Shown: one piece after another, positions 51,016 to 63,888 of the stretch
Numbering within the stretch: the stretch's first letter is position 1
Layout: every line of letters starts with the position of its first letter
Origin: Arachidicoccus sp. BS20
GTDB taxonomy: Bacteria; Bacteroidota; Bacteroidia; Chitinophagales; Chitinophagaceae
DNA: 64,000 bases
Reading direction: 5' to 3'
NCBI RefSeq assembly: GCF_001659705.1
Contig: NZ_CP015971.1
Location: forward strand, 1,240,001-1,304,000
Position numbers and translations under genes: made by a program
Notes under the pieces: generated by a model
Seen by the model: only the letters and a program-made list of their open reading frames with translations
What the model was told of the DNA's origin: nothing
Database searches by the model: none

Positions 51016-51414
51016 TTAATCTTCCTTGAATTCTTCTTTGTCTCCTAAATTTATAAAATTTATAGAAGGTAATATTATCGGTTCGAATCCTGCTTGAAGT
51101 GTAAGATTAGAGATGAAAGCTCTTAAATAAGGAAACGCTATTGCAGGAGCATTAACTTTTGGAAATGAAGATAGTTTAAATTCTTCTGTTATTTTTTCAT
51201 CTACTAACTCAAATTGAAAAAATGCATCAAGAAGAATATCAAATGCTTTGTCCTTTATTTTAAGTCTAAAATTCACCCTAAAATCACTGCTTTCTTTATC
51301 AGAAAAATGGCTTCCTGTTTCTAAATCAAAAGAATTCTTTTCTCTTTTTGACACATCATCAAGAAGTGAAAAATTCAAATTAGCTATTTTCCAATATTTT
51401 AACTGAATTTTCAT
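51016..51414 (-). CDS. SecB-like chaperone of a toxin-antitoxin-chaperone operon (CmdC-like)
   Basis: 132 residues. The second half (FPKVNAPAIAFPYLRAFISNLTLQAG, then FEPIILPSINFINL) is the typical end of SecB-fold proteins: the NAPAIAFPYLR segment forms the last strand and helix, and the LPSINF motif the C-terminal edge. The N-terminal half (FRVNFRLKIKDKAFDILLDAFFQFELVD) fits the SecB beta-sheet. It is the third gene after an ADP-ribosyltransferase-like toxin and a 74-residue protein, 1 bp apart, the order of toxin-antitoxin-chaperone (TAC) systems. In such systems the chaperone holds the antitoxin folded; when it is diverted, for example by phage proteins, the antitoxin is lost. Housekeeping SecB is rare in Bacteroidota, which favours the TAC role. 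Confidence 0.8.
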   Translation of the reverse strand: MKIQLKYWKIANLNFSLLDDVSKREKNSFDLETGSHFSDKESSDFRVNFRLKIKDKAFDILLDAFFQFELVDEKITEEFKLSSFPKVNAPAIAFPYLRAFISNLTLQAGFEPIILPSINFINLGDKEEFKED

Positions 51415-52460: not shown

Positions 52461-52772
52461 GTGAAACAAAGTGTTAAGGATAAGGATAATTTGCTTTTCG
52501 TGCTAAAAGAAAACAGTTCGAAAATAAAGTCTTACGGCGTTGAGAGCCTAAGCCTTTTCGGGTCGTTTGCCAAAGGCGTGCCCAATGCTGAAAGTGATGT
52601 GGATTTGCTTGTGAACTTCGCCCCACACCAAAAAAGCTACGACAACTTTATGGAGCTTTCTTTTTTTCTGGAAGACCTGCTTGGCAGAAGAGTGGAAATT
52701 GTAACTCCGCAATCTTTGAACAAACACATTGGCCCGCATATCTTAAACAGCGCAGAGTATGTTGCCATCTAA
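52461..52772 (+). CDS. MNT-type minimal nucleotidyltransferase (MntA-like antitoxin)
   Basis: 103 residues, GTG start. It has the nucleotidyltransferase signature GS-X10-DXD (Gly34-Ser35 ... Asp46, Asp48 in GSFAKGVPNAESDVD). MntA antitoxins of type VII systems AMPylate the HEPN toxin HepT to silence it. The next gene, overlapping by 14 bp, is a HepT homologue with a frameshift, so the enzyme may now lack a full partner. The GTG lies only 4 bp after a TATCTTTG promoter box, so the mRNA may be leaderless or start translation slightly downstream. Confidence 0.85.
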   Translation: MKQSVKDKDNLLFVLKENSSKIKSYGVESLSLFGSFAKGVPNAESDVDLLVNFAPHQKSYDNFMELSFFLEDLLGRRVEIVTPQSLNKHIGPHILNSAEYVAI

Positions 52773-53199: not shown

Positions 53200-53411
53200 T
53201 TCCGCCATGATGCGTGTCCGCACGCATCATACATAATCCACAAAATGCAGGTTGATGAATTTGAAAATAAAAGCGTCTGGGAGCTTAGCAAGGAAATAAT
53301 CGGCACAAAACAAAGCGCTGTCCAATCTTAAGCCACTTGATTTGCAGAGGAACAATGTCAGTATAGAAGTCAATCGGAAGGTTGGCTTTTTTGTGATACA
53401 AAGGGAGGTTT
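53200..53411 (+). repeat. Cassette repeat R3 (212 bp, head plus tail, no gene)
   Basis: Hairpin at 53207-53230 with perfect 10-bp arms (ATGATGCGTG and complement) around TCCG, a 28-codon frame at 53245-53331 (MQVDEFENKSVWELSKEIIG...), then a tail GTCAATCGGAAGGTTGGC with six T. It has the head of a cassette and the tail seen after hepT but no gene between them. R5 and R6 are near-identical. Confidence 0.85.
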
Positions 53412-53638
53412 TTCCGCCATGATGCGTGTCCGCACGCATCATACATAATCCACAAAATACAGGTTGATGAATTTGAAAATAAAAGCGTCTGGGAGCTTAG
53501 CAAGGAAATAATCGGCACAAAACAAAGCGCTGTCCAATCTTGAATGGCTTGGTTTACAGAGTGAGAATTGAAGGTTTTTGTTGAGGGAAAAGTGTGTGAG
53601 AAATTACCCTAACTTTGAAAAAGATAAAAAGTAGAATT
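53412..53638 (+). repeat. Cassette-head repeat R4 ahead of the antitoxin gene
   Basis: Starts 212 bp after R3 with the same hairpin (53419-53442) and shares about 125 bp with it. After TGTCCAATCTTGA it switches to the R1-type sequence (ATGGCTTGGTTTACAGAGTGAGAATTG) and ends in CCTAACTTTGAAAAAGATAAAAAG before the antitoxin ATG. The small frame has lost its ATG (ATACAGG). TAACTTTG at 53612-53619 is a probable -7 box about 20 bp before the start codon. Confidence 0.82.
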
Positions 53639-53854
53639 ATGGAATTAATCATCAATATTGACGATATAAAAGAAAGCTCTAAAAGCGAATGGTTGCTTCG
53701 CACTCTTAATCTTTTGGGCATTCATTATAAAACGCAAGAAACTCCTCAAAATTTAGAGGAGTACAATAATGATTTACTTGAAGGCGACAATGAAATTGAA
53801 CAAGGACATTTTATCACGGCAGAAGACCTTAAAAAAGAATCTTTGCAATGGTAG
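53639..53854 (+). CDS. Small antitoxin-like protein preceding a decayed ParE-like toxin
   Basis: 71 residues (MELIINIDDIKESSKSEWLLRTLNLLG ... EIEQGHFITAEDLKKESLQW). The acidic, helical C-terminus with HFITAEDLKKES resembles the toxin-binding tail of Bacteroidota ParD/RelB-like antitoxins. Start chosen at 53639, after the TAACTTTG promoter box of R4. It overlaps by 7 bp a ParE-like toxin gene that carries several lesions. Intact antitoxin beside dead toxin is the expected outcome of decay. Confidence 0.7.
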   Translation: MELIINIDDIKESSKSEWLLRTLNLLGIHYKTQETPQNLEEYNNDLLEGDNEIEQGHFITAEDLKKESLQW

Positions 53855-54137
53855 TCGTATAGAGCAGCAGGGCTGCCGCAGAATTGTTGCAAGCCTATAA
53901 ATATATCTATCGGGATTCTCCGCAAAATGCTGCCAAAGTTCGTGATACCATTATTGATATGACTCTTCTCTTACCTAAAAATCTGAGGTGCATCCTCCGG
54001 ATAAGTACAAGAAAAACAACGACGATAGTTGGCGGGCGTTTGAAAAATATCAATACAGAATATCTTACCGGATTTAAAAAAATGAAATTCGTATAGTGAG
54101 AATGCGCCATACAAGCCGTTCTCTATTACAATATTAA
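53848..54137 (+). pseudogene. ParE/RelE-type toxin, inactivated by nonsense and frameshift mutations
   Basis: From ATG 53848 the frame reads MVVV, then TAG at 53860-53862 (probably TGG in the parent), then SSRAAAELLQAYKYIYRDSPQNAAKVRDTIIDMTLLLPKN, after which it shifts. The next frame reads EVHPPDKYKKNNDDSWRAFEKYQYRISYRI, then a TAA, then KNEIRIVRMRHTSRS to the stop at 54137. Together this is a complete ParE-family fold of about 96 residues with a nonsense codon, a frameshift and a second stop. Overlap with the antitoxin end is typical of the operon type. Confidence 0.82.
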
Positions 54138-54184
54138 TTTGTAATGCATACAAATGAAATGTTGGAAAACTTGTTGAATGAATT

Positions 54185-54396
54185 TTCCGCCATGATGCGT
54201 GTCCGCACGCATCATACATAATCCACAAAATGCAGGTTGATGAATTTGAAAATAAAAGCGTCTGGGAGCTTAGCAAGGAAATAATCGGCACAAAACAAAG
54301 CGCTGTCCAATCTTAAGCCACTTGATTTGCAGAGGAACAATGTCAGTATAGAAGTCAATCGGAAGGTTGGCTTTTTTGTGATACAAAGGGAGGTTT
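54185..54396 (+). repeat. Cassette repeat R5 (212 bp)
   Basis: Near-identical to R3: hairpin 54192-54215, 28-codon frame, tail with T-tract. Directly followed by R6. No gene inside. Confidence 0.88.
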
Positions 54397-54608
54397 TTCC
54401 GCCATGATGCGTGTCCGCACGCATCATACATAATCCACAAAATACAGGTTGATGAATTTGAAAATAAAAGCGTCTGGGAGCTTAGCAAGGAAATAATCGG
54501 CACAAAACAAAGCGCTGTCCAATCTTAAGCCACTTGATTTGCAGAGGAACAATGTCAGTATAGAAGTCAATCGGAAGGTTGGCTTTTTTGTGATACAAAG
54601 GGAGGTTT
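54397..54608 (+). repeat. Cassette repeat R6 (212 bp, tandem with R5)
   Basis: Same unit as R3 and R5, hairpin 54404-54427. The start of the 28-codon frame has ATACAGG in place of ATGCAGG, the same change as in R4, so R6 descends from an R4-like head joined to an R3-like tail. Confidence 0.88.
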
Positions 54609-59248: not shown

Positions 59249-59609
59249 TTCCGCCGTGGTGCGTGTCCGCACGCAACATATATAATCAATAAATGCAGGT
59301 TGAGAAAATTGGAAATAAAAGTGTAACTTTGCATTAGCAAAATAAATTAATTATAGCTATTACAATTAAATCAGTACCTGTACTTAAAGATAAAGCGGCA
59401 GTTACTTTTACAAAAAAAGTAGCCGAAAGTTCCGCGGACAAATCTTCGGTAAAATTTACCAAGCAAATCAGCATTTCAACTAAAATTTTAGCTAAAGCAA
59501 AAATCTAAATTTATTTGAATTGGGCTTTTTACTTGATAAATGTACTCTTCGTATATATAATGAAGAAATTTTAAAGTCTTGTGAACCTTTCGATTGCGGC
59601 AACAAAGAC
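59249..59609 (+). repeat. Second copy of the 361-bp tandem duplication (cassette head R8)
   Basis: Hairpin at 59260-59275, promoter TTG (59300-59302) N21 TAACTTTG (59324-59331), antitoxin-like frame and GNAT start. It joins the rest of the GNAT gene at GACTTC. The shared TTC at both ends (TTCCGCC and GACTTC) is microhomology at the duplication joint. Confidence 0.88.
59353..59508 (+). pseudogene. Antitoxin-like frame, copy 2, without a usual start codon
   Basis: Same 51-codon frame as copy 1 with A-to-T and N-to-D changes (KAAVTFTKK, SSADKSS). Start codon position again reads ATA. This is the copy directly ahead of the GNAT gene. Either translation starts at a rare ATT/ATA, or both copies were inherited from an already inactive parent. 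Confidence 0.5.
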
Positions 59610-60589
59610 TTCAACGATTTTTTGCCAATGATGCTTTGAATTATTCCTCCGAACTTTTGGGCAAAAGCTGTTGTTTTACATTAGATGAGCATCCAGAGAT
59701 TATTGTTTGTGCATTTACCATTTCAAACGACAGCATTAAAACCTTACTTCTTCCGCGTTCCAGAAAAGACAAAGTAATTAAAGCTATTCCCCGGCAGAAA
59801 CATATGCGCAGCTATCCAGCAGTTTTAATTGGGCGGTTAGGTGTACATAAAAATTACAGGCAGTTTGGTGACGATGAGCAAAGAGTTGGAGACCAATTGA
59901 TGGATTTTATAAAAGCGTGGTTTGTAGATAACGCTAATAAAACAGGGTGCCGCTTCATTGTAGTAGATGCTTACAATGAACAGAGGCCATTGCACTATTA
60001 TAAAAAGAATGGGTTTGTAGAATTATTTAGCACCGAAGAACAGGAAAAAGAATATACAGACTTACCTAAAGAAAAAGAAATTGATGATTTAGATTATGGA
60101 ATGCAAACATATTATATCCTTGAATGTTGTGGTTGTGAATCAATTTCTTTTAGAACTGAATATATTGATTATTTAAAGGCTCAGTACGAGGAAACGGACG
60201 TAAATGCAGACAGTAATAAGACAATAGCAATATATCCCAAGCAATTAAAAAATAGAAAGGAGCTCTCGTCCATATATTATCTACCCGCAAGAATTCAGGA
60301 TGTTTATGAGCAAACAATTTTGGCATTAAAAGGTGATAGCAGATTATTAGCAGCTGTTGGATTTAGGGCAATATTAGAAGCCATATGTATTGAAGAGAAA
60401 ATTAAGGGACAAAACCTAGAGCAAAAAATAAACAACTTGGTAAAAAATAGGCTTATAACAGAGAAAGAAGCCGAACGATTACATACAATCAGATTTTTAG
60501 GAAACGACTCTGTTCACGAAATGGAAATTCCATCCGATAAAAGGTTATATCTAGTTTTGGATATTATTGAACATTTGCTTAATAATTAA
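59520..60589 (+). pseudogene. GNAT acetyltransferase fused to DUF4145, frameshifted in a T-run
   Basis: The N-terminus is in one frame (LGFLLDKCTLRIYNEEILKSCEPFDCGNKDFNDF) and the rest in another (FFANDALNYSSELLGKSCCFTLDEHPEIIVCAFTISNDSIKTL...). The switch is at GATTTTTTGCC, which has six T where DFFAND needs seven, so one T is missing. The GNAT domain (SYPAVLIGRLGVHKNYRQFG, CRFIVVDAYNE, YYKKNGF) is followed by a DUF4145-like helical domain (YLPARIQDVYEQTILALKGDSRLLAAVGFRAILEAICIEEKI) at the C-terminus. GNAT toxins with an upstream antitoxin acetylate aminoacyl-tRNA, but a resistance or modification role is also possible. The tract could be phase-variable. A TTG start within the second frame would give 331 codons with an unnatural beginning. 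Confidence 0.78.
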
Positions 60590-61064: not shown

Positions 61065-61083
61065 ATACTAAATATTTTAGTAT
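61065..61083. promoter_or_regulatory. Dyad operator upstream of the DUF488 operon
   Basis: Perfect 8-bp inverted arms (ATACTAAA / TTTAGTAT) with a 3-nt centre, ending 1 bp before the -33 element of the following promoter. Position suggests a repressor or autoregulator site. The rest of 60881-61064 shows no gene. Confidence 0.55.
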
Positions 61084-61084
61084 A

Positions 61085-61113
61085 TTTGGGCAAATAAAAA
61101 GACTTTACCTTCG
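61085..61113 (+). promoter_or_regulatory. Promoter of the DUF488 operon
   Basis: TTTG (61085-61088), a 17-bp spacer and TACCTTCG (61106-61113), near the TTG/TAnnTTTG consensus. The transcription start should fall near 61120, so the ATG at 61142, not the one at 61118, is the likely start of the first gene. Confidence 0.6.
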
Positions 61114-61141
61114 CACTATGTTTTACAGGAGAAAAATCATA

Positions 61142-62005
61142 ATGGCATTGTTGCAGGTGTTTAACGGGGAGCTTGAAAAAATACCGTTGCAGAAATTGCT
61201 TTTCCTCTTTACACAAAGACAAAACACGGAAAAAGTATATGATTTTATTCCGTACAAGTTTGGCGGTTTTTCTTATTCCGCCAATGCGGATATGACTGCG
61301 ATGGCAGGCAAAGGATTGCTGCAAGAAACCGACCATACTTTTAAGAAGCAAGATAGTGTTGATTACCTGCTCCAATTAAGAGATAGCGACCGTAGAAGCC
61401 TGCAAGAGATAAAGCAATTGTATGGCAACATGAGCAACAATACGCTAATACGGCATACTTATACCAACTTTCCCTACTTAGCTATTAACAGCTTAATGGC
61501 GAAAAATCTTTTGTCTGCCGAAGCGCTAAAAAAAGTAGAGGATGCGAGACCGAAAAGCGATAAGACTGTTTTGTTTACCATAGGCTATGAAGGTATTTCT
61601 TTGGAAGAATATTTAAACCGCCTGATTAAAAACGATGTGCGTATATTGGTAGATGTACGCAACAACCCAATGAGCATGAAATACGGTTTTAATAAAAACC
61701 AGTTGAATCGATATTGCGAAAATCTTGGAATAAAATATATACATTTTCCGGAAGTGGGCATACAATCGGAACAGCGCCAATCTTTGCAAGCGCAAACTGA
61801 TTATGATAAACTGTTTGCCGCTTACCGTAAAGACAACCTTACGAAAACACAAGACACCCAAAACGCTATTTTAGAACTACTCATACAACATCAACGGATT
61901 GCTTTGACCTGCTTTGAAGCGAACATTTGCCAGTGCCACAGAAAACATTTAGCTGAAGCGATTACAAAGCTGCCCGGTTGGCGTTTTGAGCTAAAGCACA
62001 TATGA
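61142..62005 (+). CDS. DUF488 protein with an N-terminal winged-helix-like extension
   Basis: 287 residues from ATG 61142, chosen because the upstream promoter leaves the ATG at 61118 outside or at the edge of the mRNA. Residues 1-130 (IPLQKLLFLFTQRQ, YDFIPYKFGGFSYSANADMTAMAGKGLL) look like a small helix-turn-helix/Panacea-type domain. DUF488 follows from about 145 with TIGYEG, DVRNNPMSMKYGFN, FPEVGI and the Cys/His motif CFEANICQCHRKHLAE (257-272), possibly metal- or nucleotide-binding. The biochemical role of DUF488 is unknown. Its stop is 1 bp before the next gene, so the two are translationally coupled. Confidence 0.82.
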   Translation: MALLQVFNGELEKIPLQKLLFLFTQRQNTEKVYDFIPYKFGGFSYSANADMTAMAGKGLLQETDHTFKKQDSVDYLLQLRDSDRRSLQEIKQLYGNMSNNTLIRHTYTNFPYLAINSLMAKNLLSAEALKKVEDARPKSDKTVLFTIGYEGISLEEYLNRLIKNDVRILVDVRNNPMSMKYGFNKNQLNRYCENLGIKYIHFPEVGIQSEQRQSLQAQTDYDKLFAAYRKDNLTKTQDTQNAILELLIQHQRIALTCFEANICQCHRKHLAEAITKLPGWRFELKHI

Positions 62006-62006
62006 T

Positions 62007-62825
62007 ATGGCATTAACTAAAGTACTCATTACAGTTAAGACTTACCCGACAATTTCTACCAAATACGAGGAACTCGTATGTACTGCAGGATTTAGAGAAG
62101 ACGGTACATGGATAAGAATATATCCTATTCCATTCCGGAAAAAATCATATAACGAGCAATACAAAAAATACGACTGGATAGAAATAGACCTCGTCAAAAA
62201 TAAAAGTGATTTCCGTCCCGAAAGCTACCGCCCCGTATCTTTAGAAAACGAAATAAAAATTACGGGACACATAGATACGGCTCGAAACTGGCATGAACGA
62301 AAGAATCTTTGTTTAGGCAAAGTCTATTACAATATTACTGAATTAGTTGCAGAAGCGAAAAATAAAAATATCTGTACATCTCTTGCTGTGTTTAAACCGA
62401 GCGAAATAATTGATTTTATTGCGGAGCCTGACGAACGAGAATGGAATAAAAAAAAATTAGCAAGACTGGAAGCCGAACGCCGTCAGATGAATTTGTTTAA
62501 ACAGCCTGAAAACCCTTTCGATGTTGTTAGAAAACTTCCTTATAAATTCAGGTTCATTTTTAAAGACAGTCAAGGAAAAGAAAGTAAAATGATGATTGAA
62601 GATTGGGAAACCGGACAACTATATTGGAATTGCTTTGATAAATACCAAGATGAGAAAAAGGCAATAGCAGATGTGCGTAAAAAGTATTTTGATGATTTTG
62701 CAAAAACGAAAGATTTATACTTTTATCTTGGCACTACTCAATTGCATCATTATACATCACGAAACCCATTTATGATTATTGGTACTTTTTCTCCTCAAAA
62801 AGAAATTCAAATGGCTTTATTTTGA
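62007..62825 (+). CDS. Uncharacterised partner of the DUF488 protein
   Basis: 272 residues, no family recognised. The N-terminus ALTKVLITVKTYPTISTKYEELVCTAGFREDGTWIRIYPIPFR is strikingly regular and followed by a conserved-looking RPVSLENEIKI. The middle (DEREWNKKKLARLEAERRQMNLFKQPENPFDVVRKLPYKFRFIFKD) is charged, and the end (LYFYLGTTQLHHYTSRNPFMIIGTFSPQKEIQMALF) is hydrophobic. Coupling to the DUF488 gene (1-bp gap) implies a joint function. I have the impression that this pair recurs in bacteria, but cannot verify it here. Confidence 0.7.
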   Translation: MALTKVLITVKTYPTISTKYEELVCTAGFREDGTWIRIYPIPFRKKSYNEQYKKYDWIEIDLVKNKSDFRPESYRPVSLENEIKITGHIDTARNWHERKNLCLGKVYYNITELVAEAKNKNICTSLAVFKPSEIIDFIAEPDEREWNKKKLARLEAERRQMNLFKQPENPFDVVRKLPYKFRFIFKDSQGKESKMMIEDWETGQLYWNCFDKYQDEKKAIADVRKKYFDDFAKTKDLYFYLGTTQLHHYTSRNPFMIIGTFSPQKEIQMALF

Positions 62826-62874
62826 ATGAGAAATTAAGTCAATAAATTCAAGTTAAAATAAAACAATCAAAACA

Positions 62875-63888
62875 ATGAGCAACAAAGAAAACCCAAAAAC
62901 TTGTTTCGTCATATCTCCAATTGGGGAAGAAGGTTCTACAACAAGAGAACGTTCTGATCAAGTATTAAAACACATCATTACCGAAGCTGTTAATCCTTTG
63001 GGTTATGAAGTAATTAGAGCAGATAAAATTTCGGAGCCGGGTATCATAACTACTCAGATAATTGAACATATTGTCAATGCCGAATTAGTAATCGCAGACC
63101 TTACAGAAAAGAATCCCAATGTTTTCTATGAATTGGCGATTAGACACGCGATTAGAAAACCTCTTGTGCAGATGATAAAGAAAGGAGAAATTATTCCTTT
63201 TGACGTTGCCGCTACAAGAATAATACAGTTTGATATACATAATTTAGACAGTGTTGCGGAGGCAAAGCAAGAAATTATTTCTCAAGTAAAATCACTCGCG
63301 ACAACCAATGCAAAGATTCATAATCCGATTTCGGTTTCCCTTGATTTAAAGATATTAAAAGAAAGCGGCAATATTGAAGAACGTTCTTTTGCCGACGTAG
63401 TTGAAGCAATATCTGATTTACGACGTACTATTACATCGCCAGACAAAAGCATTTCCTCATCGAAAGTTTTTGAAGAATTAAAAACATTATTAGATAATTT
63501 TTCCTCAAAAATTGATGAAAGATTAGATTCTGCCACCATAAGGCGTAAAAGGAGAATGTTCCATCCAATGATGCTCGAGGAAATGATTCATGTGGATATG
63601 CAAGAAAACGAACCGAATATTGGTTTTCTAATTGCAATCAGTTATCTAAAAGATGATTTTCCCTGGTTATATGAGATTGGACTGGAGACGTACAGAGAAT
63701 TGAAATCATTTAAAACCAAGCCAGAAAAGAGAAAATTAATAGAACGATTCAATAGAATGTTGGAAATGCTTGACAGACCCATTTTGAGAGAGCATTATGG
63801 GAAATCTGAAGAGATGTATATGTTTTCTAAAAATATTCATTACATTATTCATGATTATATTGATAAATATTTGAGTGATACAAAGTAA
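62875..63888 (+). CDS. Nucleoside 2-deoxyribosyltransferase-like / TIR-related sensor protein
   Basis: 337 residues. The first 145 form a Rossmann-like domain (CFVISPIGEEGSTTRERSDQVLKHIITEAVNPLGYEVIRADKIS ... ADLTEKNPNVFYELAIRHAIRKPLVQMIKKGEIIPFDVAATRII). The motif NPNVFYELAIRHA (80-92) with its Glu fits the nucleoside deoxyribosyltransferase / STALD-like superfamily, which includes NAD-handling defence proteins. The C-terminal half is charged and helical (residues 160-337), no family recognised. It lies 49 bp after the DUF488 partner, probably in the same operon. Enzymatic activity is inferred from fold only. Confidence 0.72.
   Translation: MSNKENPKTCFVISPIGEEGSTTRERSDQVLKHIITEAVNPLGYEVIRADKISEPGIITTQIIEHIVNAELVIADLTEKNPNVFYELAIRHAIRKPLVQMIKKGEIIPFDVAATRIIQFDIHNLDSVAEAKQEIISQVKSLATTNAKIHNPISVSLDLKILKESGNIEERSFADVVEAISDLRRTITSPDKSISSSKVFEELKTLLDNFSSKIDERLDSATIRRKRRMFHPMMLEEMIHVDMQENEPNIGFLIAISYLKDDFPWLYEIGLETYRELKSFKTKPEKRKLIERFNRMLEMLDRPILREHYGKSEEMYMFSKNIHYIIHDYIDKYLSDTK

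Follow-up and report, generated by a model that had tools for sequence, protein, structure and literature searches.

Close to the end of a 64,000-nucleotide stretch of the Arachidicoccus sp. BS20 genome (contig NZ_CP015971.1, positions 1,240,001 to 1,304,000; the whole stretch is called the window here) lie two adjoining genes, which we call gene A and gene B. Gene A (61118–62005, + strand) encodes a 295-residue protein with a predicted winged-helix N-terminus followed by a DUF488 domain, and gene B (62007–62825, + strand), which starts 1 nucleotide past gene A, encodes a 272-residue protein with a predicted tandem OB-fold. A third gene (62875–63888), which encodes a 337-residue TIR/deoxyribosyltransferase-like protein, follows 49 nucleotides past gene B on the same strand. 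Upstream of gene A are a perfect dyad, ATACTAAA-TAT-TTTAGTAT (8+3+8, 61065–61083); a promoter-like box, TATATTTG (61081–61088, + strand), which begins 37 nucleotides before the ATG at 61118; and TACCTTCG (61106–61113, + strand), which occupies the site of a conserved Bacteroidota −7 box. An earlier note, made from the letters of this DNA, had described the dyad and the three genes in this order, with a 1-bp coupled protein after the DUF488 gene, and all of these features are present where it placed them. The start of gene A at 61118 (MFYRRK) is conserved among relatives, which makes an alternative start at 61142 (MALLQV) less likely.

The PADLOC profile PDC-M19A covers the product of gene A over its full length (E 6.8e-127), and PDC-M19B does the same for the product of the adjacent gene B (E 4.1e-127); the pair is the PADLOC-DB candidate PDC-M19. 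Such entries are presented in the relevant passages of PMC12988326 as candidates found by embedding that are mostly unvalidated. The library entry for PDC-M19 consists of names, and a literature search on DUF488 function, DuOB, and PDC-M19 found no usable functional account. The earlier note had called the system undescribed, which is only partly right, as the pair itself is already listed. The pair is thus a real, already listed candidate defence module for which no functional account was found, and our analysis adds to the entry a fold assignment, a wide distribution with exchangeable N-termini, and a predicted leaderless promoter. DUF488 is a widespread domain, and its link to a constant dual-OB partner and to interchangeable N-termini replaces a gap in annotation by a two-protein system that lends itself to experiment.

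Conservation and spread of the gene pair

A contig scan with B found 177 relatives, and 80 loci were kept. A relative of A lies immediately 5' of B in 78 of the 80 loci (it is partial in L014, L040, L049, and L066), and the contigs of the remaining two start 23–30 nucleotides before B. The gap between the genes is 1–3 nucleotides in 63 of the 74 loci in which both are readable, our own copy counted. Two alignments were made, one of 75 relatives and our own copy (A1; L040, L052, L058, L064, and L072 have no full-length uninterrupted B open reading frame and were omitted) and one of 74 relatives and our own copy (A2; L014, L040, L041, L049, L066, and L076 were omitted for want of a full A). The distance matrices of A and B over 70 loci are correlated (r 0.657, reached by none of 999 permutations), as shared descent alone would also make them.

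Named close relatives of B come nearly all from Bacteroidota, and others come from Chlorobiota, Ignavibacteria, Balneolaceae, and a single contig with the label Bacilli. When 395 genomes were sampled evenly across the phylum, 20 of them (5%; E ≤ 1e-10; our own genome counted) proved to hold B, each with a gene for a DUF488 protein directly beside it; this protein is of the fused type in 19 and short and convergent in the remaining one (G050). Conservation of the gene set, which the earlier note had looked to as a check, is therefore found for the A–B pair. A search for a fixed third partner was negative: the top neighbour cluster occurs in at most 8 of 63 loci, and none occupies a constant position. 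The conserved module consists of two of the three genes, A and B; the third gene and the dyad lie outside it.

The pairing extends to mobile elements. Homologues of B occur in 23 plasmid records, 11 of which are typed conjugative, and in 7 Gordonia phages. Seventeen of these 30 records were fetched (H4, H11–H15, H23, and H25–H30 were left out), and with profiles built in the analysis we detected DUF488 beside B in 16 of them; in 10 of the 17 the DUF488 gene and B converge. Partners are short DUF488 proteins (about 150–170 residues) in the fetched records of Pseudomonadota, Arthrobacter, and Gordonia phage Eviarto, the Streptomyces canus partner consists of an XRE-type helix-turn-helix (HTH) and DUF488, and on the Saccharolobus plasmid pBEU9E1 a ParB-annotated protein with a C-terminal DUF488 is encoded directly upstream of B. 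In IMG/VR, fused A together with B was found in 8 of 9 contigs, and such contigs can include host DNA. In phage Eviarto (L113 4971–6268), B and DUF488 lie between the immunity repressor and, two small genes on, the integrase, and such a neighbourhood is a typical place for prophage-borne defence genes.

The ParB-annotated protein of pBEU9E1 is comparable in type to an archaeal DUF488-HTH fusion of ParB-CTPase fold that is reported to bind cytidine triphosphate (PMC12704722); the passages of that paper on the fusion do not mention a dual-OB partner.

The genes that follow B on some archaeal plasmids were also inspected. On two Sulfolobales plasmids a small protein encoded after B looks by eye like a PD-(D/E)XK nuclease (L108 4846–5352 and L156 3358–3849). 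One of them, P0006 of Sulfolobus pSOG2, has the motif IEID...FEMKL; no match in Pfam or among PDB sequences supports its assignment. A relative of P0006 by eye (P0007) follows B on pBEU9E1, where it is the third gene behind those for the ParB-DUF488 protein and B.

Predicted folds of the two proteins

The DUF488 domain (PF04343) in the C-terminus of A was matched by Pfam at E 3.7e-27, with 95.8 bits against a curated cut-off of 22.2, and at E ≤ 0.1 the matches for A were DUF488, DUF488-N3a, and a weak match to MC5. The structure model of A (predicted local distance difference test score, pLDDT, 93) has two parts, residues 1–139 (61118–61534, + strand) and residues 148–295 (61559–62002, + strand). 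The order of elements in the N-terminal part (H3–14, E18–20, H21–33, H53–64, E68–70, and E74–77, where H is helix and E is strand) fits a winged helix. VIA-align aligned residues 1–139 with chain 7yk3_B of a DarTG complex (Z 12.2, root-mean-square deviation [rmsd] 3.3, 135 residues aligned), and the best Foldseek match of the N-terminus is chain D of the same entry (E 5.2e-4). Because this N-terminal stretch is also matched by DarG sequence profiles, at positions 181–268 of 338 in DarG, we read 7yk3_B as the DarG C-terminal domain, and the N-terminus of A is predicted to be a winged helix like that domain. Of 75 family members, 63 are matched by the DarG profile at E ≤ 1, the best at 9e-5, and A itself (P0001) is matched with 15.8 bits against a cut-off of 250; the SocA_Panacea profile matches 43 of the 75 at the same limit (best 5.1e-5). 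A DUF488 protein with an added winged-helix-like N-terminus, as the earlier note had it, is what the Pfam match, the element order, and the fold match together point to. No useful sequence link of A or B to a solved structure was found.

The resemblance to DarTG goes only part of the way. A has no macrodomain match, and B has no family match that would make it a DarT partner. The DarG C-terminal domain is described in the part of PMC11481870 that concerns it as a mimic of single-stranded DNA, and mimicry was the first idea that the fold of A suggested. Residues 1–145 of A are net positive in all 75 members (mean +6.6, minimum +1), whereas mimicry would want a negative charge, and the simple mimicry model was dropped for this reason. 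The winged-helix domain and the constant partner gene also set gene A apart from plain DUF488. Taken with the XRE and ParB partners, three types of N-terminal module precede DUF488, and because two of the three are DNA-binding types by annotation or profile, the distribution suggests that their job is delivery of DUF488 to DNA or its control there.

Residues 148–295 resemble Rossmann-like tetrapyrrole methylases and protein phosphatases (Z 8–10.6), and DUF488 is probably related to phosphatases and rhodaneses. Among the 17 DUF488 partners of B, residues G156, Y157, L169, D179, R181, Y207, and G214 are kept in all, and C265, E267, C273, H274, and R275, which make up a CxE...CHR site, are kept in 15; the two exceptions are cyanobacterial matches in which the aligned stretch ends before that site. 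DUF488 is named without a biochemical function in the passages that mention it in PMC10667639, PMC9674854, and PMC9740157.

For B, Pfam gave no match at E ≤ 0.1. In Foldseek searches the model (pLDDT 86, predicted template modelling score 0.83) matched Teb1 and a telomere-end-binding protein, with a best E of 5.9e-5, and also a HIN domain, at E 0.01. VIA-align listed RPA, telomere, and HIN proteins, with Z 8.5 over 193 residues for 9a1v, Z 7.9 over 194 residues (rmsd 4.4) for the RPA70 domains DBD-A/B, and Z 6.5–7 for HIN domains; it lists only chains ranked by Foldseek, and families absent from the list may still be relatives. As the match list is consistent, B is predicted, on moderate scores, to be a tandem OB-fold protein like RPA, telomere-end-binding, and HIN-200 proteins. 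The structure prediction that the earlier note had proposed for this protein thus gave moderate fold matches to proteins of a nucleic-acid-binding type. No sequence relationship of B to HIN-200, RPA, or telomere-end-binding proteins was found, and its function we can only infer.

The tandem OB model also recalls the Pfam family DuOB (PF22557), to which three of ten distant B homologues have weak matches (L108, E 0.0019; L113, 0.0021; L110, 0.21). All three are below the Pfam cut-off, the other seven homologues have no DuOB match, and B itself (P0002) had none in the Pfam search. In 18 distant B sequences, 17 from the fetched plasmid and phage records and one from G050, residues D68, R70, E72, S73, R98, D199, W200, and G242 are kept throughout.

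Genomic neighbourhood and possible function

We compared genes near the pair with genes of control regions. From 317 eligible proteins encoded within three genes of the pair, 144 (62 loci) were drawn at random, as were 139 of 303 eligible control proteins; the controls came from 20 regions of 20 kb each, placed at round coordinates in four genomes from the same phylum. All proteins were of 100–1200 residues and came from a simple longest-open-reading-frame caller, and one drawn test frame without a stop was omitted. The neighbours matched 75 PADLOC families at E ≤ 1e-20 and the controls 6, where the families are redundant and their counts are not counts of systems or of defence proteins. Among the 25 of the 75 that were listed are restriction-modification types I–III, DRT reverse transcriptases, KwaB, PD-T7-4, and other candidates; the control's 6 are three RtcR, mad3, mad8, and WYL, which we take to be of a general kind. 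The earlier note had regarded a neighbourhood that is neither conserved nor enriched in defence genes as evidence against its proposal, and what we found is a conserved pair with defence families enriched beside it. Among individual loci, the convergent B-DUF488 pair of G050 (L152 4954–7980) is close to Cas1e and a CRISPR array, whose repeats were recognized by eye, and a solitary A in G300 lies one gene after a PDC-M66A kinase-like gene, with a type I specificity gene (a Methylase_S match, assigned by eye) further upstream.

Because the two genes travel together, adjoin defence families, and have relatives on plasmids and temperate phages, we favour the reading, at slightly less than even confidence, that A and B form a self-contained conflict module that moves horizontally and is probably directed against phages or plasmids, and within which B would recognize nucleic acid and A would be the enzyme. 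The targets of B would be single strands or unusual ends that phage replication or transfer exposes, and B would dock onto or activate A in an A–B complex. DUF488 with its CxE...CHR site would be a cysteine-dependent enzyme acting on nucleic acid or nucleotides. The swappable N-terminus, which is DarG C-terminal-domain-like here, XRE or ParB elsewhere, or missing, would place DUF488 on DNA or control it. A wider version is possible but doubtful: DUF488 and the dual-OB protein would form an immune module that crosses domains and is shared by bacteria, archaeal plasmids, and temperate phages, with the dual-OB protein as a prokaryotic counterpart of DNA sensors of the HIN-200/RPA type that licenses the cysteine-dependent DUF488 enzyme, itself brought to DNA by an interchangeable N-terminus (a ParB-CTPase clamp, XRE, or the DarG C-terminal-domain-like winged helix).

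Several observations weigh against the proposed conflict module. Its candidate role in defence is argued from genomic context and sequence; the control set is not matched genome by genome, the general families mad2, mad3, and WYL are also among the listed test families, and PADLOC matches control genes as well (mad3, mad8, RtcR, and WYL). The partnership is not without gaps: B has internal stops in 5 of the 20 genomes, full-length fused A occurs without a detected B in 3 of 22 (G300, G360, and G278, the contig of the last stopping about 0.5 kb past A), and on pSOG2 B has no DUF488 neighbour detectable with the profiles that found the others. The Z score of the N-terminus of A is slightly below 13, the level VIA-align states for helical bundles; the DarG and SocA_Panacea matches are far under the curated cut-offs, and another profile, PRK08057, matches 31 of the 75 members at the same E limit. 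The Z of about 8 for B falls where VIA-align warns that a match may reflect only a common arrangement, and the Foldseek superpositions of B are poor (query TM-score 0.25–0.33, rmsd 7–19 in the first ten rows). Finally, the conserved D68-R70-E72-S73, R98, and D199-W200 of B may indicate a ligand or catalytic site and not generic binding of single-stranded DNA.

The pair could instead serve the mobile elements themselves, as a module for DNA maintenance, repair, or modification that protects single-stranded ends or processes bases and is not directed at invaders. The RPA- and telomere-end-binding-like fold of B would suit such a role, as would the ParB-annotated DUF488 fusion on an archaeal plasmid and the genes for RecT, RadC, and single-stranded-DNA-binding proteins that some plasmids carry close to the pair. 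Methanoperedens plasmids have, in the passage of PMC9674854 that deals with them, a DUF488 protein whose neighbours include RadC and a Dna2-like helicase; the likeness is one of DUF488. This passage and the poor superposition of B add to the maintenance explanation and take a little from the conflict module. The wealth of defence families around the fused pair and the listing of the pair by PADLOC as a defence candidate argue the other way, and we consider maintenance unlikely.

Still less probable, in our judgement, is a toxin-antitoxin-like module in which one product, B or DUF488, is a toxin that its partner neutralizes, so that addiction retains the genes on mobile elements and defence is secondary. 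The N-terminus of A, with its relation to the C-terminal domain of DarG and a weak one to the SocA/Panacea antitoxin domain, would then be a binding domain of antitoxin type, and two small coupled genes carried by plasmids and phages would be in keeping with it. The antitoxin-like domain was undetected in the 17 fetched plasmid and phage records, in 16 of which B still pairs with DUF488, and it is therefore unlikely to be an essential antidote. In addition, the DUF488 gene and B are convergent in 10 of the 17, a layout that is unusual for a toxin-antitoxin operon.

The third gene and the upstream signals

The earlier note had also considered a three-gene system in which the TIR/deoxyribosyltransferase-like protein, encoded on the same strand so close to gene B, would be the effector and deplete nicotinamide adenine dinucleotide (NAD) or nucleotides; this explanation is very improbable and largely refuted, because the third gene occurs independently of the pair. 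A relative of its product was found in none of the 80 loci, of which 68 extend 1100 bp or more past B, and among the 395 genomes partial relatives occur in 21 (E ≤ 1e-15), which share B solely in our own genome. The third gene was accordingly rejected as a component, and neither the three-gene version nor the NAD/TIR mechanism is supported. As to the protein itself, weak matches to a PADLOC TIR effector profile (E 4.5e-9) and, in a PDB search, to the c-Myc-responsive protein Rcl (E 0.092) agree with its description as TIR/deoxyribosyltransferase-like; it has no Pfam match. The TIR match and the closeness to gene B on the same strand are what speaks for the three-gene version.

The earlier note had supposed that the first protein may bind the dyad. 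When the 118 bp before gene A were shuffled 5000 times, a comparable dyad arose in 65 cases, and the whole window has 21 dyads of that quality, against a mean of 11.8 (range 5–20) in 30 block shuffles. The exact dyad is absent from all 80 relatives' loci, and any dyad of that quality is present within 118 bp upstream in 4 of 74 relatives. In our own genome the exact pattern occurs once, with six more sites within two mismatches, compared with 16 for a reversed-pattern control. The dyad is locally uncommon, yet it is not a family feature but specific to this copy; it was rejected as a conserved operator, and since it is not conserved, binding by A is unlikely as a family trait.

A different signal marks the start of the module. 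TAnnTTTG is the −7 element of Bacteroidota promoters, and of 75 upstream regions, 43 have it exactly 12 nucleotides before the start of A and 49 have it at −14 to −10, a span in which it precedes 17 of 819 other open reading frames (gene A excluded and B included; starts were taken as the first in-frame ATG and some are wrong). Within −20 to −8, 53 of the 75 have it, whereas 200 shuffles gave 0.75 on average and 3 at most. The 75 regions include our own copy, which is not counted among the matches, as TACCTTCG has one mismatch. Because the −7 box lies 12 nucleotides before the start codon, these positions suggest that transcription would begin at about the start codon of A and yield a leaderless mRNA. 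The box that the earlier note called a promoter is probably TATATTTG, which is promoter-like, whereas relatives carry TAnnTTTG at −12 instead. Its TTTG (61085–61088) ends 17 nucleotides before the −7 box and could serve as its −33 element. It is the conserved promoter signal, not the palindrome, that marks the start of the module.

Elsewhere in the window, about 8–10 kb upstream of the pair, are a PD-T4-9_C chaperone-like gene (51019–51414, − strand, E 9.4e-35) and a PDC-S09 gene (52461–52769, + strand, E 8.8e-34). We take PD-T4-9_C to be the SecB-like chaperone of a TAC-type system; of the TAC-type system that the earlier note placed in the region, this one component was matched and the remainder is not supported. 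A protein with GNAT and DUF4145 domains is encoded at 59594–60589 (+ strand) and has a weak match to PD-T7-4 (5.4e-8); in 1 of the 80 loci (L036), the pair is immediately preceded by a relative of the C-terminal part of this protein. About 1.3 kb beyond the window end, the protein of L137 9288–9851 is by eye the one with the ADP-ribosyltransferase-type match (PF03496, 7e-11) among 30 scanned proteins, whose match table does not map matches to members; it has no PADLOC match, and the gene after it is sugar-transferase-like by eye. A further dyad, ATGATGCGTGTCCGCACGCATCAT, occurs in four copies at 53207, 53419, 54192, and 54404 (window positions 53207–54427).

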